A DNA stretch of 64,000 bases from Nannobrachium achirus (taxonomy: Eukaryota; Chordata; Actinopteri; Myctophiformes; Myctophidae). The translations under genes were made by a program, and so were the position numbers. A model generated the notes under the pieces. That model saw only the letters and a program-made list of their open reading frames with translations. It did not search any database and was not told where the DNA came from. Positions 1 to 61,647 of the stretch are shown here, piece by piece. Where the stretch lies: contig OY997659.1 of the NCBI GenBank assembly GCA_963921795.1, forward strand, positions 55,417,872 to 55,481,871, written 5' to 3'. The number at the start of each line of letters is the position of its first letter. Within the stretch, counting starts at the first letter, position 1.

Positions 1-109
1 GAAATCGTCTGTGACTATTTAACATAGAACAAATACCCTGGAACCTTCTTTTGCCTAACAACTAGGTTACCATTATTTATGTATTTAATTATTTTTTTTC
101 ATTTTCCAG

Positions 110-14473: not shown

Positions 14474-15248
14474 ACTGGAGGAAAGAGAGTGATAAGGAAT
14501 ATTCACCAATATGCTTGTGAGTTGATGTGTTTTTTTATTAAATTAGCCTAGATGTTATAGCTCGATGCCAGCTTATTCAGGGTTAAACTTTTAGTAAAAC
14601 AATTGTATTTATGGATTCAAGTTTGTAATAATTTCAATCAGAGTCATTATTGTATGATTTGGTTTCGGGATAAAATATTATATTTCAGTTTTTGGGTGAA
14701 TATTGAAGCCGTTTGATAGGAGTCCGGTATAGCCGATTTTCTATCAAGTCCCTCCAATTTCCATCTAATACCTAACCCTACATATTACATAGCTCCTCCC
14801 TTTAGGGGTTAGGTTTCTTGGTTGGCTCGTTATTTGCAAACTGAACTCACCTGGTGTTGTTTGAGAGACAGGGAGTGAGGAAGGAGAGAGAAGGAAGGTT
14901 GCACCGAAATGCCTGTGAGTAATATTATAGGTTTATTGAATTAGCCCAGATGTTATGCATTGAATACATATTATCTAAGGTTATGTTTTTAGTAAAACAA
15001 TTGTTTTTATCGATTCAAGCTTTCTTTGTTATGTCTTTGACTTGCATTGTCTTCAAAACACTTGGGATTGACTTGTATTTTACAGTGTGCTTTATAAGTA
15101 TAATGTGTCATTATCATCATTTTTACTGTATCATTTTATATTAACTGGTCAAGTGAACCTTAGTCAGGATGTGTTAGGGAGTGTTAGGATGTGTTAGGGT
15201 GTGTTAGGAACTTTATATTGGGTCTAGGGGAGGTAACTTGTGTTAGGG

Positions 15249-15351
15249 TATAAGAGGAGAAAGGATATCTTTTGTTTTCAGTTTACCCAACCTTTCTGTG
15301 AGAGAGATAGCGAGGGAGGAAAGAGAGTGAAAAGGAATATTGACCAATATG
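15249..15351 (+). promoter_or_regulatory. TATA promoter with leader and ATG, module 1 of unit A
   Basis: TATAAGAGG at 15249, initiator-like TTTTCAGTTT with its A at 15280 (31 bp after the first T), and ATG at 15349 followed by TTT and a GTGAGT donor. The spacing is what a TATA-driven start expects. GTGTTAGG repeats lie just upstream. Confidence 0.55.
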
Positions 15352-17601
15352 TTTGTGAGTTGATGTTGTGTTTTTTTATTAAATTAGCCTAGATGTTATA
15401 GCTCGATGCCAGATTATCCAGGGTTAAACTTTTAGTAAAACAATTGTATTTATGGATTCAAGTTTGTATTAATTTCAATCAGAGTCATTATTGTATGATT
15501 TGGGTTAGGGATAAAATATTATATTTCAGTTTTTGGGTGAATATTGAAGCCGTTTGATAGGATTCCGGTTTAACCAATCCTCTATCAAGTCCCTGCATTT
15601 TCCATCTAATACCTAACCCTACAAATGACCAAGCTCCTCCCTTTAGGGGTTAGGTTTCTTGGTTGGCTCGTTATGTGCAAACTTAACTCACCTGGTGTTG
15701 TTTGAGAGACAGAGAGTGAGGAAAGAGAGAAGGAAGGTTGCACCAAACAGAGAGTGAGGAAAGAGAGAAGGAAGGTTGCACCAAAATGCCTGTGAGTAAT
15801 ATTATAGGTTTATCGAATTAGCCCAGATTTTTTGCATTGAATACATATTATCTAGGGTTAGGTTTTTAGTAAATCAATTGTTTTTATCGATTCAAGCTTT
15901 CTTTGCTATATCTTTGACTTGCATTGTATTCAAAACACCTTGGGATTGAATTGTATGTGAAACAATTGTATTTATGGATTCAAGTTTGTTTTAATTTCAA
16001 TCAGAGTCATTATTGTATGATTTGGCTACGGGATAAAATATCAGTTTTTGGGTGAATATTGAAGCCGTTTGATAGGATTCCGGTATAGATAGCTCCTCCC
16101 TTTAGGGGTTAGGTTTCTTGGTTGGCTCGTTATTTGCAAACCTAACTCACCTGGTGTTGTTTGAGAGACAGAGAGTGAGGAAGGAGAGAGAAGGAAGGTT
16201 GCACCGAAATGCCTGTGAGTAATATTATAGGTTTATTGAATTAGCCCAGATGTTAGTTTTTGGGTGAATATTGAAGCCGTTTGATAGGATTCCGGTTTAA
16301 CCAATTGTCTATCAAGTCCATTCATTTTCCATCTAATACCTAACCCTACATATCATCCAGGGTTAAACTTTTAGTAAAACAATTGTATTTATGGATTCAA
16401 GTTTGTTTTAATTTCAATCAGAGTAATTATTTTATTATTTGGTTGCGTTAATACCTAACCCTACATATCATTTTTTTCTGTATTATTTTATGTTAACTTG
16501 TCAGGTTGGGCTATATTGTTTGGGTGTTTTGGCTGGTTGTTGCTTGCTTTCACAACTATTTATCAAACTTCCTTGCTCTTTAACCCAATTACAAGTTAGC
16601 CCCTAACCAAAACGGTACTTTGGTCAGGCCTGATGTAATATCAAGCTCTATTGTTCAATTTAATACCTAACCCTACAAATTACCAAGCTCCTCCCTTTAG
16701 GGGTTAGGTTTCTTGGTTGGCTCGTTATGTGCAAACTTAACTCACCTGGTGTTGTTTGAGAGACAGAGAGTGAGGAAAGAGAGAAGGAAGGTTGCACCAA
16801 ACAGAGAGTGAGGAAAGAGAGAAGGAAGGTTGCACCAAAATGCCTGTGAGTAATATTATAGGTTTATCGAATTAGCCCAGATTTTTTGCATTGAATACAT
16901 ATTATCTAGGGTTAGTTTTTTAGTAAATCAATTGTTTTTATCGATTCAAGCTTTCTTTGCTATATCTTTGACTTGCATTGTATTCAAAACACCTTGGGAT
17001 TGAATTGTATGTGAAACAATTGTATTTATGGATTCAAGTTTGTTTTAATTTCAATCAGAGTCATTATTGTATGATTTGGCTACGGGATAAAATATCAGTT
17101 TTTGGGTGAATATTGAAGCCGTTTGATAGGATTCCGGTATAGATAGCTCCTCCCTTTAGGGGTTAGGTTTCTTGGTTGGCTCGTTATTTGCAAACCTAAC
17201 TCACCTGGTGTTGTTTGAGAGACAGAGAGTGAGGAAGGAGAGAGAAGGAAGGTTGCACCGAAATGCCTGTGAGTAATATTATAGGTTTATTGAATTAGCC
17301 CAGATGTTATGCATTGAATACATATTATCTAAGGTTAGGTTTTTAGTAAAACAATTGTTTTTATCGATTCAAGCTTTCTTTGTTATGTAAAGACTTGCAT
17401 TGTCTTCAAAACACTTGGGATTGACTTGTATTTTACAGTGTGTTTTATAAGTATAATGTGTCATTATCCAAATTTTTACTGTATCATTTTATATTAACTG
17501 GTCAAGTGAACCTTAGTCAGGATGTGTTAGGGCGTGTTAGGCTGTGTTAGGGTGTGTTAGGAACTTTATATTGGGTCCAGGGGAGGTAACTTGTGTTAGG
17601 G

Positions 17602-17704
17602 TATAAGAGGAGAAAGGATATCTTTGTTTTTCAGTTTACCCAACCTTTCTGTGAGAGAGACAGCGAGGGAGGAAAGAGAGTGAAAAGGAATATTGACCAA
17701 TATG
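17602..17704 (+). promoter_or_regulatory. TATA promoter with leader and ATG, module 2 of unit A
   Basis: Same arrangement: TATAAGAGG at 17602 and ATG-TTT|GTGAGT at 17702, exactly 100 bp apart. Confidence 0.55.
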
Positions 17705-19954
17705 TTTGTGAGTTGATGTTGTGTTTTTTTATTAAATTAGCCTAGATGTTATAGCTCGATGCCAGATTATCCAGGGTTAAACTTTTAGTAAAACAATTGT
17801 ATTCATGGATTCAAGTTTGTATTAATTTCAATCAGATTCATTATTGTATGATTTGGGTTAGGGATAAAATATCATATTTCAGTTTTTGGGTGAATATTGA
17901 AGCCGTTTGATAGGATTCCGGTTTAACCAATCCTCTATCAAGTCCCTGCATTTTCCATCTGATACCTAACCCTACAAATTACCAAGCTCCTCCCTTTAGG
18001 GGTTAGGTTTCTTGGTTGGCTCGTTATGTGCAAACTTAACTCACCTGGTGTTGTTTGAGAGACAGAGAGTGAGGAAAGAGAGAAGGAAGGTTGCACCAAA
18101 CAGAGAGTGAGGAAAGAGAGAAGGAAGGTTGCACCAAAATGCCTGTGAGTAATATTATAGGTTTATCGAATTAGCCCAGATTTTTTGCATTGAATACATA
18201 TTATCTAGGGTTAGGTTTTTAGTAAATCAATTGTTTTTATCGATTCAAGCTTTCTTTGCTATATCTTTGACTTGCATTGTATTCAAAACACCTTGGGATT
18301 GAATTGTATGTGAAACAATTGTATTTATGGATTCAAGTTTGTTTTAATTTCAATCAGAGTCATTATTGTATGATTTGGCTACGGGATAAAATATCAGTTT
18401 TTGGGTGAATATTGAAGCCGTTTGATAGGATTCCGGTATAGATAGCTCCTCCCTTTAGGGGTTAGGTTTCTTGGTTGGCTCGTTATTTGCAAACCTAACT
18501 CACCTGGTGTTGTTTGAGAGACAGAGAGTGAGGAAGGAGAGAGAAGGAAGGTTGCACCGAAATGCCTGTGAGTAATATTATAGGTTTATTGAATTAGCCC
18601 AGATGTTAGTTTTTGGGTGAATATTGAAGCCGTTTGATAGGATTCCGGTTTAACCAATTGTCTATCAAGTCCATTCATTTTCCATCTAATACCTAACCCT
18701 ACATATCATCCAGGGTTAAACTTTTAGTAAAACAATTGTATTTATGGATTCAAGTTTGTTTTAATTTCAATCAGAGTAATTATTTTATTATTTGGTTGCG
18801 TTAATACCTAACCCTACATATCATTTTTTTCTGTATTATTTTATGTTAACTTGTCAGGTTGGGCTATATTGTTTGGGTGTTTTGGCTGGTTGTTGCTTGC
18901 TTTCACAACTATTTATCAAACTTCCTTGCTCTTTAACCCAATTACAAGTTAGCCCCTAACCAAAATGGTACTTTGGTCAGGCCTGATGTAATATCAAGCT
19001 CTATTGTTCAATTTAATACCTAACCCTACAAATTACCAAGCTCCTCCCTTTAGGGGTTAGGTTTCTTGGTTGGCTCGTTATGTGCAAACTTAACTCACCT
19101 GGTGTTGTTTGAGAGACAGAGAGTGAGGAAAGAGAGAAGGAAGGTTGCACCAAACAGAGAGTGAGGAAAGAGAGAAGGAAGGTTGCACCAAAATGCCTGT
19201 GAGTAATATTATAGGTTTATCGAATTAGCCCAGATTTTTTGCATTGAATACATATTATCTAGGGTTAGTTTTTTAGTAAATCAATTGTTTTTATCGATTC
19301 AAGCTTTCTTTGCTATATCTTTGACTTGCATTGTATTCAAAACACCTTGGGATTGAATTGTATGTGAAACAATTGTATTTATGGATTCAAGTTTGTTTTA
19401 ATTTCAATCAGAGTCATTATTGTATGATTTGGCTACGGGATAAAATATCAGTTTTTGGGTGAATATTGAAGCCGTTTGATAGGATTCCGGTATAGATAGC
19501 TCCTCCCTTTAGGGGTTAGGTTTCTTGGTTGGCTCGTTATTTGCAAACCTAACTCACCTGGTGTTGTTTGAGAGACAGAGAGTGAGGAAGGAGAGAGAAG
19601 GAAGGTTGCACCGAAATGCCTGTGAGTAATATTATAGGTTTATTGAATTAGCCCAGATGTTATGCATTGAATACATATTATCTAAGGTTAGGTTTTTAGT
19701 AAAACAATTGTTTTTATCGATTCAAGCTTTCTTTGTTATGTAAAGACTTGCATTGTCTTCAAAACACTTGGGATTGACTTGTATTTTACAGTGTGTTTTA
19801 TAAGTATAATGTGTCATTATCCAAATTTTTACTGTATCATTTTATATTAACTGGTCAAGTGAACCTTAGTCAGGATGTGTTAGGGCGTGTTAGGCTGTGT
19901 TAGGGTGTGTTAGGAACTTTATATTGGGTCCAGGGGAGGTAACTTGTGTTAGGG

Positions 19955-20057
19955 TATAAGAGGAGAAAGGATATCTTTGTTTTTCAGTTTACCCAACCTT
20001 TCTGTGAGAGAGACAGCGAGGGAGGAAAGAGAGTGAAAAGGAATATTGACCAATATG
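19955..20057 (+). promoter_or_regulatory. TATA promoter with leader and ATG, module 3 of unit A
   Basis: TATAAGAGG at 19955 and ATG-TTT|GTGAGT at 20055. This is the TATA-bearing module nearest gene B. Its intron to the zinc-finger exon would be about 1.4 kb. Confidence 0.55.
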
Positions 20058-20491
20058 TTTGTGAGTTGATGTTGTGTTTTTTTATTAAATTAGCCTAGAT
20101 GTTATAGCTCGATGCCAGATTATCCAGGGTTAAACTTTTAGTAAAACAATTGTATTCATGGATTCAAGTTTGTATTAATTTCAATCAGATTCATTATTGT
20201 ATGATTTGGGTTAGGGATAAAATATCATATTTCAGTTTTTGGGTGAATATTGAAGCCGTTTGATAGGATTCCGGTTTAACCAATCCTCTATCAAGTCCCT
20301 GCATTTTCCATCTGATACCTAACCCTACAAATTACCAAGCTCCTCCCTTTAGGGGTTAGGTTTCTTGGTTGGCTCGTTATGTGCAAACTTAACTCACCTG
20401 GTGTTGTTTGAGAGACAGAGAGTGAGGAAAGAGAGAAGGAAGGTTGCACCAAACAGAGAGTGAGGAAAGAGAGAAGGAAGGTTGCACCAAA

Positions 20492-20497
20492 ATGCCT
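20492..20497 (+). CDS. Candidate first coding exon (Met-Pro) nearest gene B
   Basis: ATG-CCT followed at once by the strong donor GTGAGT. The start context CACCAAAATGC has A at -3. Joining phase 0 to the exon at 21449 gives M-P-R-P-S-K-V-H, and the intron would be 951 bp. The exon itself has an in-frame TAG right before its acceptor, so an upstream ATG exon is required. Which of the copies is used cannot be told from sequence. Confidence 0.5.
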
Positions 20498-21448
20498 GTG
20501 AGTAATATTATAGGTTTATCGAATTAGCCCAGATGTTTTGCATTGAATACATATTATCTAAGGTTAGGTTTTTAGTAAATCAATTGTTTTTATCGATTCA
20601 AGCTTTCTTTGCTATATCTTTGACTTGCATTGTATTCAAAACACCTTGGGTTTGAATTGTATGTGAAACAATTGTATTTATGGACTCAAATTTGTTTTAA
20701 TTTCAATCAGAGTCATTATTGTATGATTTGGCTACGGGATAAAATATCAGTTTTTGGGTGAATATTGAAGCCGTTTGATAGGATTCCGGTTTAACCAATT
20801 GTCTATCAAGTCCATTCATTTTCCATCTAATACCTAACCCTACATATCATCCAGGGTTAAACTTTTAGTAAAACAATTGTATTTATGGATTCAAGTTTGT
20901 TTTAATTTCAATCAGAGTAATTATTTTATTATTTGGTTGCGTTAATACCTAACCCTACATATCATTTTTTTCTGTATTATTTTATGTTAACTTGTCAGGT
21001 TGGGCTATATTGTTTGGGTGTTTTGGCTGGTTGTTGCTTGCTTTCACAACTATTTATCAAACTTCCTTGCTCTTTAACCCAATTACAAGTTAGCCCCCTA
21101 ACCAAAACGGTACTTTGGTCAGGCCTGATGTAATATCAAGCTCTATTGTTCAATGGCCCAAAATTCTGCAAAACCCCTAACCCTGCTAAACTTATTCTGC
21201 CCAGCGCTGATCGGATCTTCCCACATGTTAGGATAATATGATTGGTTTGTTAATTTTTTGTTATAATATGAGATTTTTATTGGGTATTATTCAGTTACTT
21301 GATCAAATCCAAACAGAACAACTTACGCAAAACAGCAGGTTTCTTTTCTTACAGCTTGTCATGAAGTTTGGCTTTAGACCCAACTTCCTTCTAATTAAAA
21401 TTGCTATGTGACCCAATTACTGACAATCACCTTTTTTGACTCATCTAG

Positions 21449-21597
21449 AGACCGAGTAAAGTGCACGCTACCGTAGTCGCCTGTCCCATGGTCGGCTGTC
21501 GCCAAGGGGAGTGTTTTATAAAAACCCACCTGGTGAAAAAACACAAGGTGGAAAACGATGTCGAGAGAAATCTTATTCAAGATTATGCCAATGGCAG
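21449..21597 (+). CDS. Gene B exon: first C2H2 zinc finger
   Basis: Encodes RPSKVHATVVAC followed by a C-x4-C-x9-H-x4-H finger (CPMVGC ... HLVKKH) and ends NLIQDYANG. Enters in phase 0 after TCTAG and leaves in phase 2 at GGCAG|GTAAAG. Residue spacing is that of an atypical C2H2/BED-like finger, probably DNA-binding. Confidence 0.78.
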
Positions 21598-24073
21598 GTA
21601 AAGTCGATCCCATTAATGAGACCATGATTATTCTGTAATGGTGCAATAAGCAGACACTTTCAAAACTGATGTTGCTTACCTTGTCTTCACTTGTTAGAAT
21701 CCACGACGGGGACACCCTCGATTGTGTGTTATGTGGAAAGGAAAATAACACAAGGCTGGACAAGCACTTTAGAGACAAGCATGACCTACCTATCGGTGTA
21801 AGTTCTTTTTTTTTGCTTGCTACTTATTAAAGATTTGGTCAAATTAGAGTGTATGTTGACTGGATCTCACTGGACCAAAATTGTGTGGTTAACCAGACTG
21901 TACTCTTCAACAGGAGACAGACAACCGAAGATTGTTCATCACCGCCAAACGGCAATTAACGCTGGGGAAGCTGGCTAATCTAAGAGCCTCCGGCGTGGCG
22001 ATGGTCAGCGAGCTGGACCTTGTGGAAGGAGGTAGGTTGAACTGCCGTTCCAATTGTAAGTATGGGATAATTTTTTTGTCATTGTTCAGGGTCTTTGGTG
22101 GGTTTTGGGATGGGGTGTCTGTTAAGGGTTTGGTGATTTCTTTCTCCATGATATTTTTTTCTAATCGGAATCATCATTCGAGGATGTATCAGAATGTGTA
22201 TACCATAACAACTAGGTTAATAATTTTAGTTTCAGCTCCAGTTCCTCCACGGCCAAACCCCTTGCCTAACCCCCTGCCTCCTGCTCCCCGGGCCCTCCAG
22301 CCCCACGGAGGTAGGTTCAATTCCCGTTCCAGTTTTATGAAGACTTTTCTGTTGCGTATAATCTAAATTAATTGTTTTGTTTTGTTTTTTCAAACAGGTC
22401 CAGCACCTCAGGTCGACCTGCTCCCAGGAGGTAGGTTCGATTTCAGTTCCAATTTTATGAAGACTTGTCTGTTGCGTAACATCTAAGTTAATAGTTTTTG
22501 TGTCAACAGGTCTTGACCAAGATGTCAATCACCAAGATGCCGGTAGGTTCAATTTCCGTTCCAATTTTATGAAGACTTGTCTGTTGCTTAACAACTAAGT
22601 TAATTATTTTTCTCTCAACAGGTCGGTTCTCAATTCCGAAGGTCCATTGGTCGGAAGGTTCTCACTTCCGAAGGTTCTATATTCCGAAAATGGGCTCTTT
22701 ACTCCGAAAACTGAATCCCATTGTTCCGAAGGTTCTCAATTCCGAAATCACCGGGGTTTCATTGGGCCAACGATGTCAAAGGGCGCTCTCCATGGTGCCA
22801 AAATGAGCAAGAAAAAAAAAAAAAAGAAAAAAAATAACCTTGGCAGTCAGTCTCGCAATGACTGAAAGCGCTTTACCCTGTTTTAATCCATCCGATCTGA
22901 TCGTGGGTATTGTGCCTTCGCCTCTGTTGCGCGGCACGCCTCGATCAGCCGATGCGCAAAATAAAAGAAAAAATATCTATAAGTGGTAGCCCATAATGAC
23001 CGTTATTGTGGCGATATCGCCAAAATTCCCACTGGGCACGACTCTATGCATATATAGCCTAGTATAGACATGACAAGGTTCATAAGTTGACGCATTTGGA
23101 GCTGAATTATCAGTTAATATGCAACTATTTGTTTCAAAAAATGACACAATGTGACATAGTTCTCATATGCTTTACCAATGTATGTTTTCTCATGCCCAAT
23201 AAACCCCCTTCTGTTTGACGTTTCTTTAAGCGTGGCTGTGGTTCGCTATAAAGGCTTAAACTAAAGGCTTCGGGTTTCATGCAAACTCCAAATAATGTAA
23301 TGGCCCATTGACCACGCACAGTGTCCTTGCTTTGATTTTAAATAAAACACGTTTCTACTTTACACTGAGTCTGAGCTACCTTGGATCCTTTAAAATATCT
23401 CCTTCTTATTATTTCACTCTTTTGAAACGCACAGCACCGTAAATTAACTTGGAACCTTTGTCCTGTAACTAGCAGCGCTTTTTCATCTTATCACATAACG
23501 TAGTCTTACCATCTGATGAGGCTGAAGTGGCCTATGGATGAAATCTAGGCCTATAGTGTCTCCATATTAGCCAGTAAAGGTGAGTGAGCAGTTGTTCAGT
23601 ATAAGGGTTTATATGATATCATTTATATATTTAATAATATATATTTATTAGCCCCTGGTTGCGAGGTTGAATCTCATAATTTAACCTCTTATTTATACTG
23701 CCCATTTATGGCGGCATTCACACGGGCACGTTTTATTGCTATTAAAACGAATCCTCTAACGTATTGTCGGAAAATACACAACGTTTGGACATGTGTGAAG
23801 ACACATCCGTAGGCTATCTCAAATACAGGCAATATATAGAGCCATGTGCGGGTTAAATCCATAGTTATTTATAAAAGGTTAAATCCCCCTCCAGACCGTC
23901 CGCTCTCATTAAATTTCTGACCATTCTGGCTGCCTCCTCCCCTCATTGATTTCATTTCTGATCACCGCTCCCTCGATCGCACATACATAGTGTATTATTT
24001 GTGAGGAGTTGCTCACAGTTAGATGAAAGGAAAGTGCCACTGGAGACACTTGTAGACCTATATCATATATAGG

Positions 24074-24123
<50 letters not shown>

Positions 24124-24199
24124 CTCGCAGTGCCAAATCATGTCCAAATGGAGACGCTTTACGCGGAGCGGAGCGCAGAGAGGGAGCCAGCGGAGGGCA

Positions 24200-24286
<87 letters not shown>

Positions 24287-27264
24287 GTTGACGTTGTCCT
24301 CTTCGTAGATATTCATATCTTGCTAAAGTAGGCCTATTTGCTGTCTGGTTAATTGCTGATAGATTTTGCGAGTCTCTCCCGCCGCCGCATGGTTTTATTT
24401 TTTGATCGCCCGTTTATACGACCGTCGACCGCAGGTAAATATTTACGGGGGTCCTGACTCCTGCGGTTACATTGTGAGTTGAACTTGAAGAATTAATAAA
24501 CACAGGGAGATGGAGGAGGCATTATTATGCAGCTTGGATACATACATGTCCCGTGGACAGACGTGGACTCAGTGATTCCAGTGATTCGTATGACAATGTG
24601 TGTGAGCGCAAACGTATCAATTAAATATGCAAGAATGTGGCAACTTCACCACCTCCCATTCGCACGACTAAACTGAATTATATTTTGAGAATGTGGCCAG
24701 TCTAACGCGCAGTGGATCCATCGCATGAGAGACTTGCTTGCCAAAATAAGCTGATCTACAAGTTGTCAAGGCAGTGCGTAGGCCTACATGACCCGTTGTT
24801 AGCTTGTAGATCTGCCCATTTTGAGGAGTGATGACATGATAGGACTATAGGTCACGTGAGACTTGTTGCGCCTTCTGCGAAAGATTTGTATGGTATTTCT
24901 CTCTGCTCAAGTCACAGGGCCTAATGCAAGGATGTCAAAATACGACTAGTTTTTATCTATGCGTGCATGTTTCCAACTCAGGCTACTATTATAATCTAAA
25001 TGCTGCAGATTTAGTCCACAAATCCGCCTAACAAGAAACGGATGTGCATATCCTATAGGCCTATACATATTTTATTAACATATCACACGTTTTTTCTGTG
25101 TATGAGGGAGCTTTCCAAATTCTGTGCCCAAGCTGGCAGCGAGGCGTCCCCTGAAGATGCTATTCATAATATAGACATTGTATTATATAGGCCTACATTC
25201 TATATCCTGATCTATAAAACGTATAATAAAACATTTGGTTAATAATAGGTTTGACAAAGTACGTTGTCACTTTATATAACCATGATTATTCAATCTGCAG
25301 CATATAGATTATAATAGTGGCCTGAGTGCGCGATGGATCCACTGCGCGTTATAAATGGGCAGTATAAAGGGGAGGTTAAATTATGAGATTCAACCTCGCA
25401 ACCAGGGGCTAATAAATATAGGCTATATTATTGAATATATACATTTATCATATAAACTCTTATACTGAACAATTGCTCACTCACCTTTACTGGCTAATAT
25501 GGAGACACTATAGGCCTAGATTTCATCCATATAGGCCACTTAGATAGATAGATAGATACCTTTATTATCCCAAGGGGGAAATTTAGTTGTCCAGTAGTAG
25601 CACAGCAGTATACAGTTATTTACAAAGTTACAGAGACGTAAGAAAGATAGATAAGAGGGAAAAAAACAAAACAAAACAAAGACAAGAGCAGTACAGTACC
25701 AATAAGGAGAAGGTGCATCAATAGAGGGGGGCGAATAATATATAAGTATATATACTTCAGCCTCATCAGATGGTAAGACTACGTTATGTGATAAGATGAA
25801 AAAGCGCTGCTAGTTACAGGACAAAGGTTCCAAGTTAATTTACGGTGCTGTGCGTTTCAAAAGAGTGAAATAATAAGGAGATCTTTTAAAGGATACAAGG
25901 TAGCTCAGTGTAAAGTAGAAACGTGTTTTATTTAAAATCAAAGCAAGGACACTGTGCGTGGTCAATGGGCCATTACATTATTTGGAGTTTGCATGAAACC
26001 CGAAGCCTTTAAGCCTTTAATAGCGAACCACAGCCACGCTTAAAGAAACGTCAAACAGAAGGGGGTATTCAAAGGAGCGTTATTGGGTATGAGAAAACAT
26101 ATACTTTACATTGGCAAAGCAATTGTCAAAATAAAATGAAACCCTTAGAAAATGGGGACCATATGATCGAGAGCTATGTCGCATTATGTCATTTTTTAAA
26201 CAAATAGCTGCATATTAACTGATAATTCAGCTCCAAATGCGTCAACTTGTGAACCTTGCCATGTCTATTGTATGCATAGAGAGTCGTGCCCAGTGGGAAT
26301 GTTGGCGATATCACCACAATAGCGGTCATTATGGGCTAAGGAGAGTCGAGTCGACCACTTAACAGATATTTTTTCTTTTATTTTGCGCATCGGCTGATCG
26401 AGGCGTGCCGCGCAACAGAGGCGAAGGCGCAATACCCACGATCGGATCGGATGGATTAAAACAGGGTAAAGCGCTTTCAGTCATTGTGACTGCCGAGGTT
26501 CTTTTTTTGTGTGCTCATTTCGGCGGCACCGGCACCATGGGAGAGCGCCGATTGACATCGCTGGCCCAATGAAACCCCGGTGATTTCGGAACAAAGAACC
26601 TTCGGAGCAATGGAATTCAATGTTCGGACCAATGGGCTGTCGGAACAACGAACCCTGGGCCCACGGAGCCCATTTTCGGAATATAGAACCTTCGGAATTT
26701 AGAACCGTCGGACCAATGCCATGGCACCCAGCTTCTGGCCCCCCCGATCCCAGAAGGTAGGTTCAATTCCTGTTCCGGTTTTAAGAAGACTTCTGTCAGG
26801 GGCAGGAACAAATCTAGGCAAATTGCATTTTAACATGGTACTTGATAGGAAATCGTCTGTGACTATTTAACATAGAACAAATACCCTGGAACCTTCTTTT
26901 GCCTAACAACTAGGTTACCATTATTTATGTATTTAATTTTTTTTTTTTCATTTTCCAGCCCAGCCATCCCAGGGACCAGCTCCAGACCCTTATGAAGAGC
27001 CCGATGGGGTACCCTCTTGTTCAGCAGGTGAGGGGAATAATAGTTCCAAATTGCAAGAATACATACAAGGCTTGATCTACCAAGAAAAATCATTGGGTTA
27101 TTGGGTCAAATGATTCAAAGATTTGATTTGAAATGGGTTGCCCAATACTTTATCAAAGCCATTGATCCACCCACTAACTGAAACAAACTATTATCTTTAC
27201 TCAAGAGGTGAGTCTATTACCAGACCTAAAGCAAGGTGTGTCAAAACGCATATTAAGACTTAAC

Positions 27265-27324
<60 letters not shown>

Positions 27325-30300
27325 TTTACAGACGAGGAGCTCAGTGTCGACAACAAAAAGACATTCCTCAACATGGCCAGAGAGAGGATGCCGAAGCTGC
27401 TGAGTAAGTAAACATACCCATATCTGTATATCTGTGCCAGTTGTAAAAAAAATAAAAAATGAACCTTTTCTATTTAGACCGACTGCTGAGGGACTTTAAC
27501 AACAACACCCTAAAGGAGGTCCAAGGGCTCCTGGCAGGATACCTCATCCTGAGGACGGGACACCGGCCAGGAGTCCTGACCAACATGACGGTTGAAGAAT
27601 ACAAGAATGCAAAAATTGCAAAGGACCTCCGGGTGATTCATGTAAGTCAAGACTTCTAACACCTCCCATTGGTATTGTCTAAATGTATTTTTATGGGTCA
27701 CTGAATGTGTTTAAATCTTCACACAATGTGCTTCTTCTGTTTTAGGTCAGGGATCAGACCTCATCAACAAAGGGCCCGGCCGCCCTGCAACTCAAGCTAG
27801 AGGAATATTTGTGGCTGGGCCAACTTTACAATACGCGCGTCCTTAAACAAATCACGTCAAAACAAGTTTTTTGTAACAAGGCCGGGGGGAAAGTGACGGA
27901 TCTCGGGAAGTTTGTGCAAATGCAGTTGGAGGAGGCCGGTCTCCCGGGAAAGGTCAGCCTTGACAGGATGAGGACTTCTACAACCAGCAAGGTACATTTT
28001 ACAAACCAAAGACTTTCAACAGGAAGATCGTAAAATTAAGTTTTATTACTTAGACCTTCTCTTCCATCCACAGACACATCGTACCCAGGATAGGCTCGGG
28101 CAGGAGGCCGTTGCCCAGGCTAAGCAGCACAAACTGGAAACGGCAAAAACGGCACGGGACCTGAGGAAGGGTGGTAAAGAGGAAGGGCCTGAACGGCTTC
28201 AAGCCCCCCCGCTCCCAGGAGGTAGGTTCAATTCCCGGTTCCATTTTAGAAGACTTGTGTTAGGGGCAGGAACAAATCTAGGCAAATTGAATTTTTAACA
28301 TGGTACTTGATAGGAAATCGTCTTTGACCATTTAACATAGAACAAATAGACTTGTGTGTTGCGTAACAACAAAGTTAATTATTTTTCTCTCAACGGGTCC
28401 AGCTCCTCCTGAACGGCTTCAAGCCCCCCCGCTCCCAGGAGGTAGGTTCAATTCCCGGTTCCGTTTTAAGAAGACTTGTGTTTAGGGCAGGAACAAATCT
28501 AGGCAAATTGAATTTTTAACATGGTACTTGATAGGAAATTGTCTTTGACTATTTAACATAGAACAAATAGACTTGTGTGTTGCGTAACAACAAAGTTAAT
28601 TATTTTTCTCTCAACAGGTCCAGCTCCTCCTGAGCGGCGTCAAGCCCCCCTGCTCCCACAAGGTAGGTTCAATTCCCGGTTCGGTTTTAAGAAGACTTCT
28701 GTTAGGGGCAGGAACAAATCTAGGCAAATTGAATTTTTAACATGGTACTTGATAGGAAATCGCCTTTGACCATTTAACATAGAACAAATAGACTTGTGTG
28801 TTGCGTAACAACAAAGTTAATTATTTTTCTCTCAACAGGTCCAGCTCCTCCTGAACGGCGTCAAGCCCCCCTGCTCCCACAAGGTAGGTTCAATTCCCGG
28901 TTTGGTTTTAAGAAGACTTGTGTTAGGGGCAGGAACAAATCTAGGCAAATTGAATTTTTAACATGGTACTTGATAGGAAATCGTCTTTGACCATTTAACA
29001 TAGAACAAATAGACTTGTGTGTTGCGTAACAACAAAGTTAATTATTTTTCTCTCAACAGGTCCAGCTCCTCCTGAACGGCGTCAAGCCCCCCCCGCTCCC
29101 ACAAGGTAGGTTCAATTCCCGGTTCGGTTTTAAGAAGACTTGTGTTAGGGGCAGGAACAAATCTATGCAAATTGAATTTTTAACAAGGTACTTGATAGGA
29201 AATCGTCTTTGACCATTTAACATAGAACAAATACCCTGGAACCTTCTTTTGCCTAACAACTAGGATACCAATATTCATTCATTTATTAATTTATTAATTT
29301 ATTCATTCATAAAGGTATTTATTTATTCAATTATTCATTATCGTTAGTTCAGCAGGTGAGGTTATTGGGTTATTGGGTCAAAAGATTCACTGATTTGATT
29401 TAAAATGTGTTTGAAAAATGTGTTAACTAATTATGTTATATACTCAATGTAATTACAGAAAGTTCCTCGAGCTCATCGGAAGAGGAGGGAACAGAAGAGG
29501 AGGAAGAGGAGCAGGAGGAGCAGGAGAAGGAGGAAGAAGAGCAGGAGGAGGAGGTGGAGGTGGTGGTGAAGAAAAAGAAAAAAAATCGACCTGGTCCTTC
29601 CGCATCCTTCTATAGCGCACAAAAGAAATGGTGGCAACGGGTTAGCCTGCACTCCAAGGCGAGCATTCGCCTCCACCCCTCCCCCAAGGAGGCAAAGAGG
29701 AGGCGAGTACTGAAGAGCGTCAGGTTCACGCCAAACACCAAGAAGGCCCTCCGGGGAGTGAAAGAAGAAGCCTTAAATCCACATATCCGAATCCTCAAAG
29801 GGTTAGGTAAGACATTTACATTTACTCTTCAAATTGTAAGAATACTTGTGTGTGTGACTAGATCAATAATGTATGTTCCAACACCTCCAGGAAAACATAT
29901 GCGTTCATGCACCTCTGCAGAGCTTGAGGGGGAGACAAATGAAGGTGAGTACATTTTGGATTTATTGGGAATTTATTGGCATTTATTGGAATATTTAAAA
30001 TAAGACTTGATATGACATTGGCCCTGACAACCTTAGTAAGGGGTCACTTTTTGGGTGGTAAACTATTAATTTGATAGAAAATTGTCTGCCCAAATTCCTA
30101 TCAGATCCATTCAATGGACATTGAATAATAATGGTGTCTAACATCCATATTTGTAATGTTTGTTTTAACAGCTCAAGCTCCTCATGGAAAGATGGTTAAA
30201 CGTAAGGGCAATAATTATTCCAAATTGTAACAATACTTTCGTTTGACAGTATTGACAAGTATTGACATCCATAATAATGTTTCCTTCAACAGGGCAGCTT

Positions 30301-30562
30301 ACCTTCCAAATGGAATGTGGACAGCAGCAGCCCAGCAGCCCAGCAGAGTCAGAAGGCCCCCCAGCAGCCCTCCCCCTCTGGATCCTCAGGCCCAGCGCCA
30401 GCCCCTGCCCAGGCGGATATAAATGTGTCTTTCCTTCCACCTGCCCCCACTGCCTCAGGCCAAGCACTTTCCAACCCCTCTGGCTCTGACCCCTCTGTGT
30501 TTATAGACGCAGAAGAGCTAACCCTAAACCTAAACCCACCCCCCCCCCTCCCCCCCAAATGA
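21449..30562 (+). CDS. Gene copy B: zinc-finger, tyrosine-recombinase-like, proline-rich protein (spliced)
   Basis: Complete gene copy apart from its first exon, which lies in the upstream array. Exons: 21449-21597, 21698-21797, 21914-22031, 22236-22310, 22398-22430, 22510-22542, one exon interrupted by the foldback element, 26959-27027, 27332-27403, 27478-27641, 27746-27991, 28074-28221, microexons 28618-28662, 28839-28883 and 29060-29105, then 29459-29806, 29891-29944, 30172-30201 and a last exon from 30293. Expected product is about 650 residues: two C2H2 fingers, Pro-rich linkers, Crypton-like recombinase segment, Pro-rich repeats, an acidic/basic nuclear-type region and a Pro-rich tail. 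DNA binding in the nucleus is likely. Recombinase activity is doubtful because no nucleophilic Tyr is evident. The third microexon has 46 nt, which shifts frame if included. Could be a domesticated or recently mobile Crypton-like gene. Confidence 0.68.
21698..21797 (+). CDS. Gene B exon: second C2H2 zinc finger
   Basis: Encodes IHDGDTLDCVLCGKENN and then KHFRDKH, giving C-x2-C-x10-H-x4-H. Phase 2 in, phase 0 out (ATCGGT|GTAAGT). Two fingers on adjacent exons support an N-terminal DNA-binding module. Confidence 0.78.
21914..22031 (+). CDS. Gene B exon: basic/helical linker
   Basis: Encodes ETDNRRLFITAKRQLTLGKL followed by ANLRASGVAMVSELDLVEG, a basic helix-like segment. Phase 0 in, phase 1 out (GGAG|GTAGGT). 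From here every small exon is phase 1-1. No family recognised. Confidence 0.72.
22236..22542 (+). CDS. Gene B exons 4-6: small proline-rich exons
   Basis: Three phase 1-1 exons: 22236-22310 (PVPPRPNPLPNPLPPAPRAL...), 22398-22430 (GPAPQVDLLPG) and 22510-22542 (GLDQDVNHQDA). Their introns start GTAGGTTCAATTTC or similar and share AAGACTTGTCTGTTGC with the introns of the downstream 221-bp microexons, so all derive from one exon-intron module. Exons 5, 6 and the interrupted one are 112 bp apart. Confidence 0.72.
24074..24121. repeat. CT microsatellite in foldback spacer, unit B
   Basis: (CT)n with one CTTTCT interruption, 48 bp. It is complementary to the GA tract at 24204-24285, about 80 bp downstream. 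Confidence 0.95.
24204..24285. repeat. GA microsatellite in foldback spacer, unit B
   Basis: (GA)n of 82 bp. With the upstream CT tract it can form an additional hairpin or triplex. Reading frames of Arg-Glu or Leu-Ser repeats here are artefacts. Confidence 0.95.
25542..25753 (-). mobile_element. LINE 3'-end insertion in right foldback arm, unit B
   Basis: 212 bp absent from the matching place in the left arm. It begins with AGATAGATAGATAGATACCT and CTTTATTATCCCAAGGGGGA, the reverse of a 3' end common to teleost CR1/Rex1/L2-type LINEs with a (TATC)n tail. ACTT flanks both sides (25538-25541 and 25754-25757), a likely target-site duplication. It is too short to code. Confidence 0.65.
26959..27403 (+). 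CDS. Gene B exons 8-9: acidic proline linker and helical exon
   Basis: 26959-27027 encodes QPSQGPAPDPYEEPDGVPSC; 27332-27403 encodes DEELSVDNKKTFLNMARERM and PKLL. Both are phase 1-1. The second is probably the start of the recombinase core-binding region. The intron between them holds a (TA)n tract at 27269-27317. The first exon and its left intron have a decayed paralogue downstream of the microexons at about 29230-29400. Confidence 0.7.
27269..27317. repeat. TA microsatellite in intron, unit B
   Basis: (TA)n of about 49 bp before the acceptor at 27331; identical length in unit C (47844-47892). Confidence 0.9.
27478..28221 (+). CDS. Gene B exons 10-12: tyrosine-recombinase-like segment
   Basis: 27478-27641 encodes RLLRDFNNNTLKEVQ..GYLILRTGHRPGVLTNMTVEEY, matching the Arg-I box style (TGxR) of tyrosine recombinases. 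27746-27991 encodes VRDQTSSTKGPAALQLKLEE through GLPGKVSLDRMRTSTTSK, an Arg-II-like box. 28074-28221 encodes THRTQDRLGQ..QHKLETAKTARDL and ends PERLQAPPLPG. From remembered relatives in fish Crypton-like proteins, a tyrosine would be expected near HKLETAKTAR, and none is present. So it is probably DNA-binding rather than catalytic. The last 11 residues are the source of the microexon repeat. Phases run 1-0, 0-0, 0-1. Confidence 0.68.
28397..29105 (+). repeat. Tandem microexon modules, unit B
   Basis: Four 221-bp modules: 28397-28441 (acceptor CAACGG, probably dead), 28618-28662, 28839-28883 and 29060-29105. The last has eight C in AAGCCCCCCCCGCT, hence 46 nt rather than 45; including it would put the acidic exon out of frame, so it must be skipped or that copy is impaired. 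Residues are GPAPPERRQAPLLPQ-type. Unit A lacks this extra base. Confidence 0.85.
29459..29806 (+). CDS. Gene B exon: acidic then basic low-complexity region
   Basis: 348-nt phase 1-1 exon encoding ESSSSSSEEEGTEEEEEEQE, more Glu, then EVEVVVKKKKKNRPGPSASF, QKKWWQRVSLHSKASI and RRRVLKSVRFTPNTKKALRG. The Ser/Glu tract and KKKKK and RRR clusters suggest nuclear localisation and chromatin or nucleic-acid contact. Identical in all units apart from a nearby intronic change. The other-frame poly-Gly and poly-Leu readings are shadows. Confidence 0.78.
29891..30201 (+). CDS. Gene B exons: two small phase 1-1 exons
   Basis: 29891-29944 encodes KHMRSCTSAELEGETNE; 30172-30201 encodes AQAPHGKMVK. Both have good acceptors (CTCCAG, TTTAACAG) and donors (GTGAGT, GTAAGG). 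The second resembles a short, diverged relative of the PAPPE microexon. Confidence 0.65.
30293..30562 (+). CDS. Gene B last exon: proline-rich tail
   Basis: The best-looking frame reads SSSPAAQQSQKAPQQPSPSG, then PAPAPAQADINVSFLPPAPT and SVFIDAEELTLNLNPPPP, with stop at 30560-30562 just after the C tract. Joining the previous exon by its phase 1 donor to the AG at 30292 gives another frame (QLTFQMECGQQQ) that stops about 70 residues in. An AG a few codons downstream (CCCAGCAG|CCCAGCAG) would restore the first frame, but its pyrimidine tract is weak. The C-tract length differs from unit A, so the C-terminus differs (PPLPPK here, DPFE in A). Confidence 0.5.
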   Translation, partial: GSLPSKWNVDSSSPAAQQSQKAPQQPSPSGSSGPAPAPAQADINVSFLPPAPTASGQALSNPSGSDPSVFIDAEELTLNLNPPPPLPPK

Positions 30563-37419: not shown

Positions 37420-38176
37420 GAAAGAGAGTGATAAGGAATATTCACCAATATGCTTGTGAGTTGATGTGTTTTTTTATTAAATTAGCCTAGATGTTATAGC
37501 TCGATGCCAGCTTATTCAGGGTTAAACTTTTAGTAAAACAATTGTATTTATGGATTCAAGTTTGTAATAATTTCAATCAGAGTCATTATTGTATGATTTG
37601 GTTTCGGGATAAAATATTATATTTCAGTTTTTGGGTGAATATTGAAGCCGTTTGATAGGAGTCCGGTATAGCCGATTTTCTATCAAGTCCCTCCAATTTC
37701 CATCTAATACCTAACCCTACATATTACATAGCTCCTCCCTTTAGGGGTTAGGTTTCTTGGTTGGCTCGTTATTTGCAAACTGAACTCACCTGGTGTTGTT
37801 TGAGAGACAGGGAGTGAGGAAGGAGAGAGAAGGAAGGTTGCACCGAAATGCCTGTGAGTAATATTATAGGTTTATTGAATTAGCCCAGATGTTATGCATT
37901 GAATACATATTATCTAAGGTTATGTTTTTAGTAAAACAATTGTTTTTATCGATTCAAGCTTTCTTTGTTATGTCTTTGACTTGCATTGACTTGTATTGAC
38001 TTGTATTTTACAGTGTGCTTTATAAGTATAATGTGTCATTATCATCATTTTTACTGTATCATTTTATATTAACTGGTCAAGTGAACCTTAGTCAGGATGT
38101 GTTAGGGAGTGTTAGGATGTGTTAGGGTGTGTTAGGAACTTTATATTGGGTCTAGGGGAGGTAACTTGTGTTAGGG

Positions 38177-38279
38177 TATAAGAGGAGAAAGGATATCTTT
38201 TGTTTTCAGTTTACCCAACCTTTCTGTGAGAGAGATAGCGAGGGAGGAAAGAGAGTGAAAAGGAATATTGACCAATATG
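38177..38279 (+). promoter_or_regulatory. TATA promoter with leader and ATG, module 1 of unit B
   Basis: TATAAGAGG at 38177, TTTTCAGTTT about 30 bp on, ATG-TTT|GTGAGT at 38277. Confidence 0.55.
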
Positions 38280-40529
38280 TTTGTGAGTTGATGTTGTGTT
38301 TTTTTATTAAATTAGCCTAGATGTTATAGCTCGATGCCAGATTATCCAGGGTTAAACTTTTAGTAAAACAATTGTATTTATGGATTCAAGTTTGTATTAA
38401 TTTCAATCAGAGTCATTATTGTATGATTTGGGTTAGGGATAAAATATTATATTTCAGTTTTTGGGTGAATATTGAAGCCGTTTGATAGGATTCCGGTTTA
38501 ACCAATCCTCTATCAAGTCCCTGCATTTTCCATCTAATACCTAACCCTACAAATGACCAAGCTCCTCCCTTTAGGGGTTAGGTTTCTTGGTTGGCTCGTT
38601 ATGTGCAAACTTAACTCACCTGGTGTTGTTTGAGAGACAGAGAGTGAGGAAAGAGAGAAGGAAGGTTGCACCAAACAGAGAGTGAGGAAAGAGAGAAGGA
38701 AGGTTGCACCAAAATGCCTGTGAGTAATATTATAGGTTTATCGAATTAGCCCAGATTTTTTGCATTGAATACATATTATCTAGGGTTAGGTTTTTAGTAA
38801 ATCAATTGTTTTTATCGATTCAAGCTTTCTTTGCTATATCTTTGACTTGCATTGTATTCAAAACACCTTGGGATTGAATTGTATGTGAAACAATTGTATT
38901 TATGGATTCAAGTTTGTTTTAATTTCAATCAGAGTCATTATTGTATGATTTGGCTACGGGATAAAATATCAGTTTTTGGGTGAATATTGAAGCCGTTTGA
39001 TAGGATTCCGGTATAGATAGCTCCTCCCTTTAGGGGTTAGGTTTCTTGGTTGGCTCGTTATTTGCAAACCTAACTCACCTGGTGTTGTTTGAGAGACAGA
39101 GAGTGAGGAAGGAGAGAGAAGGAAGGTTGCACCGAAATGCCTGTGAGTAATATTATAGGTTTATTGAATTAGCCCAGATGTTAGTTTTTGGGTGAATATT
39201 GAAGCCGTTTGATAGGATTCCGGTTTAACCAATTGTCTATCAAGTCCATTCATTTTCCATCTAATACCTAACCCTACATATCATCCAGGGTTAAACTTTT
39301 AGTAAAACAATTGTATTTATGGATTCAAGTTTGTTTTAATTTCAATCAGAGTAATTATTTTATTATTTGGTTGCGTTAATACCTAACCCTACATATCATT
39401 TTTTTCTGTATTATTTTATGTTAACTTGTCAGGTTGGGCTATATTGTTTGGGTGTTTTGGCTGGTTGTTGCTTGCTTTCACAACTATTTATCAAACTTCC
39501 TTGCTCTTTAACCCAATTACAAGTTAGCCCCTAACCAAAACGGTACTTTGGTCAGGCCTGATGTAATATCAAGCTCTATTGTTCAATTTAATACCTAACC
39601 CTACAAATTACCAAGCTCCTCCCTTTAGGGGTTAGGTTTCTTGGTTGGCTCGTTATGTGCAAACTTAACTCACCTGGTGTTGTTTGAGAGACAGAGAGTG
39701 AGGAAAGAGAGAAGGAAGGTTGCACCAAACAGAGAGTGAGGAAAGAGAGAAGGAAGGTTGCACCAAAATGCCTGTGAGTAATATTATAGGTTTATCGAAT
39801 TAGCCCAGATTTTTTGCATTGAATACATATTATCTAGGGTTAGTTTTTTAGTAAATCAATTGTTTTTATCGATTCAAGCTTTCTTTGCTATATCTTTGAC
39901 TTGCATTGTATTCAAAACACCTTGGGATTGAATTGTATGTGAAACAATTGTATTTATGGATTCAAGTTTGTTTTAATTTCAATCAGAGTCATTATTGTAT
40001 GATTTGGCTACGGGATAAAATATCAGTTTTTGGGTGAATATTGAAGCCGTTTGATAGGATTCCGGTATAGATAGCTCCTCCCTTTAGGGGTTAGGTTTCT
40101 TGGTTGGCTCGTTATTTGCAAACCTAACTCACCTGGTGTTGTTTGAGAGACAGAGAGTGAGGAAGGAGAGAGAAGGAAGGTTGCACCGAAATGCCTGTGA
40201 GTAATATTATAGGTTTATTGAATTAGCCCAGATGTTATGCATTGAATACATATTATCTAAGGTTAGGTTTTTAGTAAAACAATTGTTTTTATCGATTCAA
40301 GCTTTCTTTGTTATGTAAAGACTTGCATTGTCTTCAAAACACTTGGGATTGACTTGTATTTTACAGTGTGTTTTATAAGTATAATGTGTCATTATCCAAA
40401 TTTTTACTGTATCATTTTATATTAACTGGTCAAGTGAACCTTAGTCAGGATGTGTTAGGGCGTGTTAGGCTGTGTTAGGGTGTGTTAGGAACTTTATATT
40501 GGGTCCAGGGGAGGTAACTTGTGTTAGGG

Positions 40530-40632
40530 TATAAGAGGAGAAAGGATATCTTTGTTTTTCAGTTTACCCAACCTTTCTGTGAGAGAGACAGCGAGGGAGG
40601 AAAGAGAGTGAAAAGGAATATTGACCAATATG
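40530..40632 (+). promoter_or_regulatory. TATA promoter with leader and ATG, module 2 of unit B
   Basis: TATAAGAGG at 40530 and ATG-TTT|GTGAGT at 40630; the TATA module nearest gene C. Confidence 0.55.
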
Positions 40633-41066
40633 TTTGTGAGTTGATGTTGTGTTTTTTTATTAAATTAGCCTAGATGTTATAGCTCGATGCCAGATTATCC
40701 AGGGTTAAACTTTTAGTAAAACAATTGTATTCATGGATTCAAGTTTGTATTAATTTCAATCAGATTCATTATTGTATGATTTGGGTTAGGGATAAAATAT
40801 CATATTTCAGTTTTTGGGTGAATATTGAAGCCGTTTGATAGGATTCCGGTTTAACCAATCCTCTATCAAGTCCCTGCATTTTCCATCTGATACCTAACCC
40901 TACAAATTACCAAGCTCCTCCCTTTAGGGGTTAGGTTTCTTGGTTGGCTCGTTATGTGCAAACTTAACTCACCTGGTGTTGTTTGAGAGACAGAGAGTGA
41001 GGAAAGAGAGAAGGAAGGTTGCACCAAACAGAGAGTGAGGAAAGAGAGAAGGAAGGTTGCACCAAA

Positions 41067-41072
41067 ATGCCT
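41067..41072 (+). CDS. Candidate first coding exon (Met-Pro) nearest gene C
   Basis: ATG-CCT with immediate GTGAGT donor, equivalent of 20492. Phase 0 joins to exon 42024-42172. Confidence 0.5.
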
Positions 41073-57994: not shown

Positions 57995-58751
57995 GAAAGA
58001 GAGTGATAAGGAATATTCACCAATATGCTTGTGAGTTGATGTGTTTTTTTATTAAATTAGCCTAGATGTTATAGCTCGATGCCAGCTTATTCAGGGTTAA
58101 ACTTTTAGTAAAACAATTGTATTTATGGATTCAAGTTTGTAATAATTTCAATCAGAGTCATTATTGTATGATTTGGTTTCGGGATAAAATATTATATTTC
58201 AGTTTTTGGGTGAATATTGAAGCCGTTTGATAGGAGTCCGGTATAGCCGATTTTCTATCAAGTCCCTCCAATTTCCATCTAATACCTAACCCTACATATT
58301 ACATAGCTCCTCCCTTTAGGGGTTAGGTTTCTTGGTTGGCTCGTTATTTGCAAACTGAACTCACCTGGTGTTGTTTGAGAGACAGGGAGTGAGGAAGGAG
58401 AGAGAAGGAAGGTTGCACCGAAATGCCTGTGAGTAATATTATAGGTTTATTGAATTAGCCCAGATGTTATGCATTGAATACATATTATCTAAGGTTATGT
58501 TTTTAGTAAAACAATTGTTTTTATCGATTCAAGCTTTCTTTGTTATGTCTTTGACTTGCATTGACTTGTATTGACTTGTATTTTACAGTGTGCTTTATAA
58601 GTATAATGTGTCATTATCATCATTTTTACTGTATCATTTTATATTAACTGGTCAAGTGAACCTTAGTCAGGATGTGTTAGGGAGTGTTAGGATGTGTTAG
58701 GGTGTGTTAGGAACTTTATATTGGGTCTAGGGGAGGTAACTTGTGTTAGGG

Positions 58752-58854
58752 TATAAGAGGAGAAAGGATATCTTTTGTTTTCAGTTTACCCAACCTTTCT
58801 GTGAGAGAGATAGCGAGGGAGGAAAGAGAGTGAAAAGGAATATTGACCAATATG
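58752..58854 (+). promoter_or_regulatory. TATA promoter with leader and ATG, module 1 of unit C
   Basis: TATAAGAGG at 58752, ATG-TTT|GTGAGT at 58852. Confidence 0.55.
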
Positions 58855-61104: not shown

Positions 61105-61207
61105 TATAAGAGGAGAAAGGATATCTTTGTTTTTCAGTTTACCCAACCTTTCTGTGAGAGAGACAGCGAGGGAGGAAAGAGAGTGAAAAGGAATATTGAC
61201 CAATATG
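61105..61207 (+). promoter_or_regulatory. TATA promoter with leader and ATG, module 2 of unit C
   Basis: TATAAGAGG at 61105, ATG-TTT|GTGAGT at 61205. Confidence 0.55.
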
Positions 61208-61641: not shown

Positions 61642-61647
61642 ATGCCT
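61642..61647 (+). CDS. Candidate first coding exon (Met-Pro) nearest gene D
   Basis: ATG-CCT with immediate GTGAGT donor, equivalent of 20492. Phase 0 joins to exon 62599-62747. Confidence 0.5.

Follow-up and report, generated by a model that had tools for sequence, protein, structure and literature searches.

Why should a gene be preceded by as many as 14 tandem copies of what appears to be its own start exon, and could more than one of these copies serve as a starting point of transcription? The question arises for a zinc-finger gene whose tandem units, 20.6 kb each, lie where the assembly of a chromosome ends, and we addressed it in a window (the whole 64-kb stretch of DNA that was analysed) containing arrays upstream of genes B, C and D. 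On its + strand the window has 36 copies of the motif ATG-N3-GTGAGT and on its - strand none, where 0.33 per 64 kb would be expected by chance (mean of 30 second-order Markov simulations). The ATG-YYT subset accounts for 32 of the 36 sites, with 14 before gene B, nine before C (37450-41067) and nine before D (58025-61642). The remaining four sites, all ATG-AAG (3546, 8680, 29939 and 50514), correspond to where a late exon ends; that at 29939 is the E19 donor of our gene model, and the other three are copies in repeated units. Before gene B, 10 ATG-CCT, three ATG-TTT and one ATG-CTT are each followed directly by GTGAGT, at the positions and in the codon classes given by the original prediction, where about 0.3 sites would be expected in the window; the similar sets that it reported before C and D are likewise present.

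The sites lie in two types of cassette, T1 (mostly CCT) and T2 (mostly TTT or CTT), which in array B (14481-20497, + strand) follow each other in the order T2-truncated, T1, T2, T1, T1, T1, T1, T2, T1, T1, T1, T1, T2, T1. All features given here are on the + strand. The ATG-CTT copy (14511-14516) is a truncated T2 cassette, its upstream sequence is unrelated, and it lacks the TATA and initiator of the three TTT cassettes; in this respect the original description of the sites needs correction. T1 cassettes carry ATG-CCT at 14909-14914, 16209-16214, 17263-17268, 18562-18567 and 19616-19621, and, with a 38-bp duplicated leader, at 15786-15791, 16840-16845, 18139-18144, 19193-19198 and 20492-20497, the last being closest to exon 2. 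Full T2 cassettes span 15249-15354 (TATA at 15249, initiator A at 15280, 69-nt leader, ATG-TTT at 15349-15354), 17602-17707 (TATA at 17602, initiator A at 17633, ATG-TTT at 17702-17707) and 19955-20060 (TATA at 19955, initiator A at 19986, ATG-TTT at 20055-20060). Arrays C (37450-41072) and D (58025-61647) hold nine cassettes each and precede the exon 2 of gene C (42024-42172) and of gene D (62599-62747). Among 11 chosen cassettes, T1 and T2 are 62-68% alike over ~225 nt and have a core common to both, and they are 59-63% alike to a partial cassette of the related C5 cluster. The cassettes are nested in a higher-order repeat of ~2353 bp, which lies in turn within the 20,575-bp gene unit. Many copies are 97-100% identical, and the retention of most of them means little because they are too young.

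One shared exon 2 is preceded by tandemly repeated modules of promoter-proximal DNA, exon 1 and the first part of intron 1; each first exon codes for two residues only (M-P, M-L or M-F). Exon 2 of gene B, the first zinc-finger exon (21449-21597, phase 0 in, phase 2 out), has an in-frame TAG immediately upstream and must be entered in phase 0, as had been noted; all first-exon donors are in that phase, with an open frame behind. It is followed by E3-E7 (21698-22542), with a second zinc finger in E3, then E4, and small proline-rich and other exons in E5-E7, and by E9-E21 through the stop codon (26959-30489, micro-exon copies E14 and E17 omitted). An insertion with inverted-repeat arms (22853-26489) interrupts exon 8 of the unit, as judged by eye. 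E1, E2 and 16 further exons give an open frame of 643 codons, and the same protein is obtained from C. This frame assumes that E8, E14 and E17 are skipped, since the model omits exon 8 for the insertion, E14 because its copy has no acceptor AG, and E17 because its 46 nt would shift the frame.

The nature of the protein was pursued by domain and structure searches. E11-E12 may resemble a tyrosine recombinase (Crypton-like). Such an origin was not supported, no recognisable recombinase domain having been found: at E values up to 10, neither the first 393 residues nor a second stretch of 151 residues matched any Pfam family, and a PDB search gave chance-level matches only (best E = 1.8). For an acidic stretch, 17 weak families were returned, all under their curated cut-offs, and no viral-contig relative of exon 12 was found.

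Only in the full T2 cassettes did we recognise core promoter signals. TATA and initiator are 31 nt apart in each of the window's seven full T2 copies (three in B, two in C and two in D), and the 69-nt full T2 leader contains no other ATG. For T1, the majority type, no recognisable core promoter was found in the one unit that was searched. The first-exon donors are weak on the exon side, with matrix scores of 2.6 (CCT), 1.3 (TTT) and 2.9 (CTT), compared with 1.7-8.1 for 15 other donors of the same gene.

We then collected, by flank homology, 113 cassettes from the window and 13 further loci, excluding rows whose match is limited to the leader's duplicated upstream half, and the partial matches L019 5854 and L023 3891; five cassettes of L036 are also outside this set. 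The core ATG-NNT-GTGAGT is kept in 111 of the 113 (73 CCT, 18 CTT, 20 TTT), and the ATG or the donor is lost in two. Both T1 and T2, with the same core, are retained in the C22, C18 and C5 clusters, the C5 relative having a single T1, a single full T2 and a partial cassette, with ATG-CCT in the first two. When T1 was used as the query, with 40 of 102 candidates scored, 41 matches were listed as a lower bound, all on C22, C18 and C5; for 39 of them an exon 2 follows within 10 kb. T1 as a mobile element is disfavoured because these listed matches are confined to three clusters. In a distant paralogue arranged head to head, ATGCCT|GTGAGT stands ~0.7 kb upstream of a zinc-finger exon entered in phase 0; the paralogue's leader has no blastn match to T1 or T2, and its start exon is present in one intact and one visibly decayed copy, as read in the sequence. 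Comparison supports the claim that the sites are phase-0 first coding exons, through the 643-codon frame, the paralogue with the same core, the two old cassette types that share it, and the listed cassette matches, which are confined to clusters of this gene.

Module number varies among paralogues, B exceeding C by one 2353-bp block of five. The array had been described as copy-number variable, and this holds between paralogous genes within one assembly. The length of E3 shifts the frame in four diverged copies, if the same splice sites are used, and three of these four have intact first exons, so that cassettes may outlive the gene. On C22, an array of five cassettes is followed by 37 kb without an exon 2.

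From these sequence comparisons we consider it somewhat probable (roughly 55%) that the 5′ end of the gene has been amplified in tandem and that each full module can serve as an alternative first exon. Promoter-proximal DNA would open a full module, followed by the leader, by a first coding exon of 6 nt (the ATG and one more codon) and by the beginning of intron 1. RNA would start at or near the module, and the GTGAGT donor would be joined in phase 0 to the shared exon 2, the predicted products being Met-Pro, Met-Phe or Met-Leu followed by an identical protein. Blocks of modules would be gained or lost by unequal exchange without a parallel change in the coding exons, with an exchanged block of 842 bp in one diverged array and of ~2353 bp in B. 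The use of several cassettes as alternative first exons is plausible, and the arrangement could let a gene gain or lose starting points. Promoter dosage, which the original prediction took to follow from cassette number, may do so if transcription starts at the modules, more than one of them is used and output depends on how many there are.

The principal alternative, to which we would assign a substantial minority of the probability, is passive amplification: the first coding exon is real, yet use is confined to one or two cassettes (probably the T1/T2 pair nearest exon 2), and the others are by-products of tandem 5′-flank duplication at a recombination-prone chromosome end. The great similarity of most cassettes speaks for it, as does the lack of significant conservation of the core. 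In a first count, variable columns in core and flanks were 2/10 vs. 31/102 for T1 and 0/10 vs. 36/102 for T2, the T2 flank figure being too high because of truncated copies with unrelated upstream sequence. A recount dropped L017_7395 (T1) and the truncated or partial T2 cassettes window_14511, L010_6195, L018_6213 and L022-_5425, and gave 0/10 vs. 17/102 for T2; in the pooled data the core (2/20) was not significantly less variable than the flanks (48/204; one-sided Fisher's exact test: P = 0.13), and we rejected core conservation as proof of use. The same reading is favoured by the C5 relative with its single T1, single full T2 and one partial cassette, by the two cassettes that lost ATG or donor, by the head-to-head paralogue with one intact and one decayed start exon, and by the existence of an array lacking exon 2. 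Against it stand the retention of T1 and T2 with the same core in all three clusters, and the TATA and initiator kept 31 nt apart in the full T2 copies of the window. The main reading is itself weakened by several findings. Among 40 candidates scored out of 78, no spliced retrocopy spanning the E1-E2 junction was found; just two matches cover query positions 1-70 (C22:55385406 and C18:61969649), and both cross the 38-bp duplicated leader and not the junction. The exon-side weakness of the donors, the T1 modules with no recognised core promoter, the near-identity of many copies, the core that is not significantly conserved, the acceptor-like sites inside the array, the frame-shifting E3 lengths and the C22 array lacking exon 2 also count against it.

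It is improbable that transcripts start at a distal cassette and sometimes include downstream cassettes as internal leader exons, with stop codons and lower translation as the result. Acceptor-like sites do recur in the array (tttcaatcag, score 5.0; ctccctttag, 2.2-3.6), with scores near that of the exon-2 acceptor (4.2), and a pyrimidine-rich TTTTCAG precedes the T2 starts. However, when 490 AG sites were ranked, this TTTTCAG did not come among the top 30, the C5 copy has TTTGG at the ctccctttag site, and internal exons introduce stop codons, as read by eye; T2 as an internal exon was rejected on its acceptor rank and on the stop that its inclusion would place, also by eye, at the exon-2 junction. 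That the sites are a chance by-product of the repeat and that the gene starts elsewhere, e.g., at the internal ATG of exon 2, which lies in a strong start context (CCCATGG), is highly improbable even with core conservation not significant, since an internal start would remove the first cysteine of the finger, ATG-CCT|GTGAGT recurs before exon 2 of the distant paralogue, and the core is retained in 111 of 113 cassettes.

The proposed amplification of alternative first exons may be compared with known systems. Protocadherin and UGT1A genes have many alternative first exons with their own promoters, spliced to shared downstream exons, and each of these first exons codes for a large and different part of the protein; here, in contrast, every first exon gives two residues and the protein is nearly unchanged. 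Closer in layout is the ribosomal DNA intergenic spacer, where duplicated promoters, in varying number, lie ahead of each tandem gene unit. Those spacer promoters are served by RNA polymerase I, yield a non-coding product and are not known to supply a start codon. In the present units, a putative core promoter of TATA and initiator lies in three cassettes of B, two of C and two of D, and none was found before the T1 cassettes of one unit or in the CTT cassette. Tandem duplication of a promoter with a first exon is already known from PEP1 of Arabis alpina, where a partial tandem duplication extends from parts of the promoter through exon 1 into intron 1, distinct start sites were identified by 5′ RACE, and the upstream copy is absent from one accession (PMC3527215). 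As in the present arrays, the repeated segment, from promoter-proximal DNA to the beginning of intron 1, lies upstream of a shared exon 2; there are two copies ~6.3 kb apart, at a single plant locus, with an exon 1 that codes for the MADS box (PMC3527215). The arrays reported here are on a larger scale and nested in a gene amplification, with up to 14 modules and a putative first exon of two codons within a tandem gene cluster.

A further step would be to view the array as a tunable promoter, in which expression is adjusted, whatever the number of gene copies, as unequal exchange adds or removes modules, in a fast-evolving family at a chromosome end; T1 and T2 (without and with TATA, Met-Pro vs. 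Met-Phe or Met-Leu) might then also be regulated differently and lead to different N-terminal processing. We offer this tentatively and think it unlikely. Paralogues in one genome bear different numbers of start exons, and since every module would lead into one common set of coding exons, the number of start sites would be separated from the number of genes. Such a separation would open to study whether output scales with promoter multiplicity, whether tandem promoters interfere with one another, and how fast such arrays turn over.

The window holds 36 ATG-N3-GTGAGT sites on the forward strand and none on the reverse (expectation 0.33); four are part of a late exon, and the other 32 are cassettes, each a leader followed by a 6-nt candidate first coding exon (ATG-NNT) and a GTGAGT donor. 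The original prediction of 14 such sites before gene B (10 CCT, three TTT, and one CTT), with further sets before its tandem copies C and D, held on recounting (14, 9, and 9). Array B has 10 cassettes of type T1, all ATG-CCT, five of which carry a 38-bp leader duplication; three full cassettes of type T2 (mostly ATG-TTT or ATG-CTT), all ATG-TTT; and one truncated T2 cassette, ATG-CTT, at 14511 (+ strand), where the sequence 5′ of the leader is unrelated. Across the arrays (window 14–20, 38–42, and 58–62 kb), GC skew is about +0.15 to +0.24 and AT skew about −0.12 to −0.14, a strand bias exceeding that of most of the gene unit.

Directly upstream of exon 2, the first zinc-finger exon (21449–21597, + strand), lies an in-frame TAG, and the exon has to be entered in phase 0, as had been predicted. 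When ATG-CCT is joined to exon 2 and 16 more exons, all bordered by AG/GT, the frame stays open for 643 codons in gene B and encodes an identical protein in C; in D, joining was limited to the first seven exons. This model omits exon 8, a micro-exon copy without acceptor AG, and a frame-shifting 46-nt micro-exon copy. Exons 2 and 3 encode two motifs that by eye resemble zinc fingers; the first 393 residues matched no Pfam family, and PDB matches to exons 10–13 were at chance level. Exon 8 of B is interrupted by an inverted-repeat insertion of ∼4 kb (window ∼22625–26740, repeated in C at +20575), which has three inverted pairs of arms (108–127 nt, 98–100% identity) and falls within the 99.9% repeat common to B and C. 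At 28188–29233 lies a tandem 221-bp repeat (TRF) with a proline-rich micro-exon and intron sequence in every copy; one copy lacks the acceptor AG, and the 46-nt exon of another would shift the frame.

We consider it probable (about 0.8) that ATG-NNT before GTGAGT is the first coding exon. Among the 41 T1 matches listed in a genome search (best 40 of 102 candidates scored), all on contigs C22 (which carries the window), C18, and C5, 39 have an exon 2 no more than 10 kb downstream; the remaining two come from an array 38 kb from the next exon 2. ATG-NNT-GTGAGT is retained in 111 of 113 cassettes collected by flank homology, with ATG lost in one and the donor in another. At first count, variable columns numbered 2/10 (T1) and 0/10 (T2) in this core vs. 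31/102 and 36/102 in the flanks; the T2 flank count included truncated copies, and fell to 17/102 on their removal. The pooled difference was then not significant (2/20 vs. 48/204, one-sided Fisher test: P = 0.13), so column conservation by itself does not demonstrate constraint, and we lowered our estimate from 0.85. As to age, T1 and T2 are 62–68% identical among 11 chosen cassettes (59–63% in comparisons with a partial C5 cassette), and each type is present in all three clusters (C22, C18, and C5). The copy on C5 carries a single T1 and a single full T2 cassette (both ATG-CCT) plus a partial third. Exon 2 of the C5, C3, and C304 copies each carries a +1 frameshift, and the upstream sequence covered for C3 and C304 yielded no cassette.

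All seven full T2 cassettes in the window have TATAAG 31 nt upstream of the A in TTTTCAGTTT, followed by a 69-nt leader without further ATG. Within one gene unit (both strands), three of 38 TATAAA/TATAAG motifs have an initiator-like hexamer at 29–32 nt, two of them being T2 cassettes. This layout recurs among the listed copies on C5 and C18; a diverged C22 array (L009) has TAAAAG at the TATA position. In T1 cassettes we recognized no core promoter.

Intact cassettes upstream of each exon 2 number 8, 5, 14 (B), 9 (C), 9 (D), 9, 9, 9, 8 (plus a ninth with ATG lost), 4, and 9 on C22, and 3, 5, 4, 0 (a single cassette, its donor lost), and 3 on C18, of which two precede an intervening partial gene copy; C5 has three, one partial. 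A further five-cassette array near 55.58 Mb on C22 has no exon 2 nearby. B exceeds C by one block of ∼2353 bp (five cassettes) plus 11 bp, which fits unequal exchange as read from sequence; assembly collapse or expansion of near-identical repeats is a possible alternative. On C18 (locus L021, 7450–7877; L019/L020, around C18:62034000–62035800), partial gene copies (exons 3–4, or cassette plus exon 2) separate cassettes from exon 2, and show rearrangement within these arrays.

Whether several cassettes are used is a closer matter, which we judge slightly in favor of use. Several points weigh against the alternative-first-exon reading. No processed copy was found with leader plus exons 2–4 as query among the best 40 of 78 candidates. 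Cassette donors are weak in their exonic part (matrix scores: CCT 2.6, TTT 1.3, CTT 2.9 vs. 1.7–8.1 for 15 other donors). Acceptor-like sites scoring near the exon-2 acceptor recur within the array, so multi-exon leaders are possible. In four diverged copies (C22_5538, C18_6197, C18_62035, and C18_62048), the length of exon 3 would cause a frameshift, assuming unchanged splice sites, and three of these copies have intact cassettes; cassette integrity is thus no proof of a working gene. That cassette number sets dosage is unlikely.

The window (G000:C22:55417872–55481871, in an assembly of 1.66 Gb) lies ∼0.2 Mb from the end of C22, which breaks off within a further copy of the gene unit, with no telomere repeat found in its final 4.8 kb. 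The unit repeats in tandem at 20,575 bp (B, C, and D, 99.9% alike), and exons 2–7 of B differ from the seven best-matching other copies (L001–L007, including C and D) at 0 or 1 of 1094 bases. Exon 2 has 19 genomic matches (C22, 11; C18, 5; C5, C3, and C304, one each). An exon 11–12-like query had 55 matches on 17 contigs (C22, C18, C5, C3, C6, C21, C10, C4, C371, C14, C20, C1, C15, C70, C74, C275, and C518), the six on C1, C15, C70, C74, C275, and C518 scoring identically, as if recently dispersed. We compared exon 2 (21449–21597) with that of L030, L028, L020, L029, and L025. B and C22_5538 differ at 22/149 exon-2 sites (pN = 0.159, pS = 0.114) vs. 2/100, 1/82, 2/94, and 6/186 in introns; for C22_5538 and C18_62048, pN = 0.091 and pS = 0.016. 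Between copies, exon 2 is more divergent than its introns, which would reflect either positive selection or patchwork gene conversion.

At the level of titles and abstract openings, we found no description of a comparable array. The closest published parallel is PEP1 of Arabis alpina, in which exon 1 and promoter parts are present in two tandem copies, both joined to a single exon 2, and 5′ RACE showed separate start sites (PMC3527215). For repeated promoters ahead of tandem units, the nearest analogy is the rDNA spacer (PMC1215480).

A distant head-to-head paralogue (− strand; L009, ∼3.2–4.6 kb; L017, ∼1.9–3.4 kb; two copies 99% alike) also bears on whether the cassettes are first exons: it has a proline-rich stretch and a start exon, ATGCCT before GTGAGT, with a phase-0 zinc-finger exon ∼0.7 kb further on; by blastn its leader matched neither T1 nor T2. 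The expected count of the exact 12-mer is 0.0002 per 3 kb; since the site came from a looser-pattern scan of ∼160 kb on both strands, its position before a zinc-finger exon outweighs that figure. The intron between these two exons also contains a degenerate version of this start, with ATG and donor both altered. Start-exon duplication therefore seems to have occurred in the paralogue too, and copies do undergo decay.
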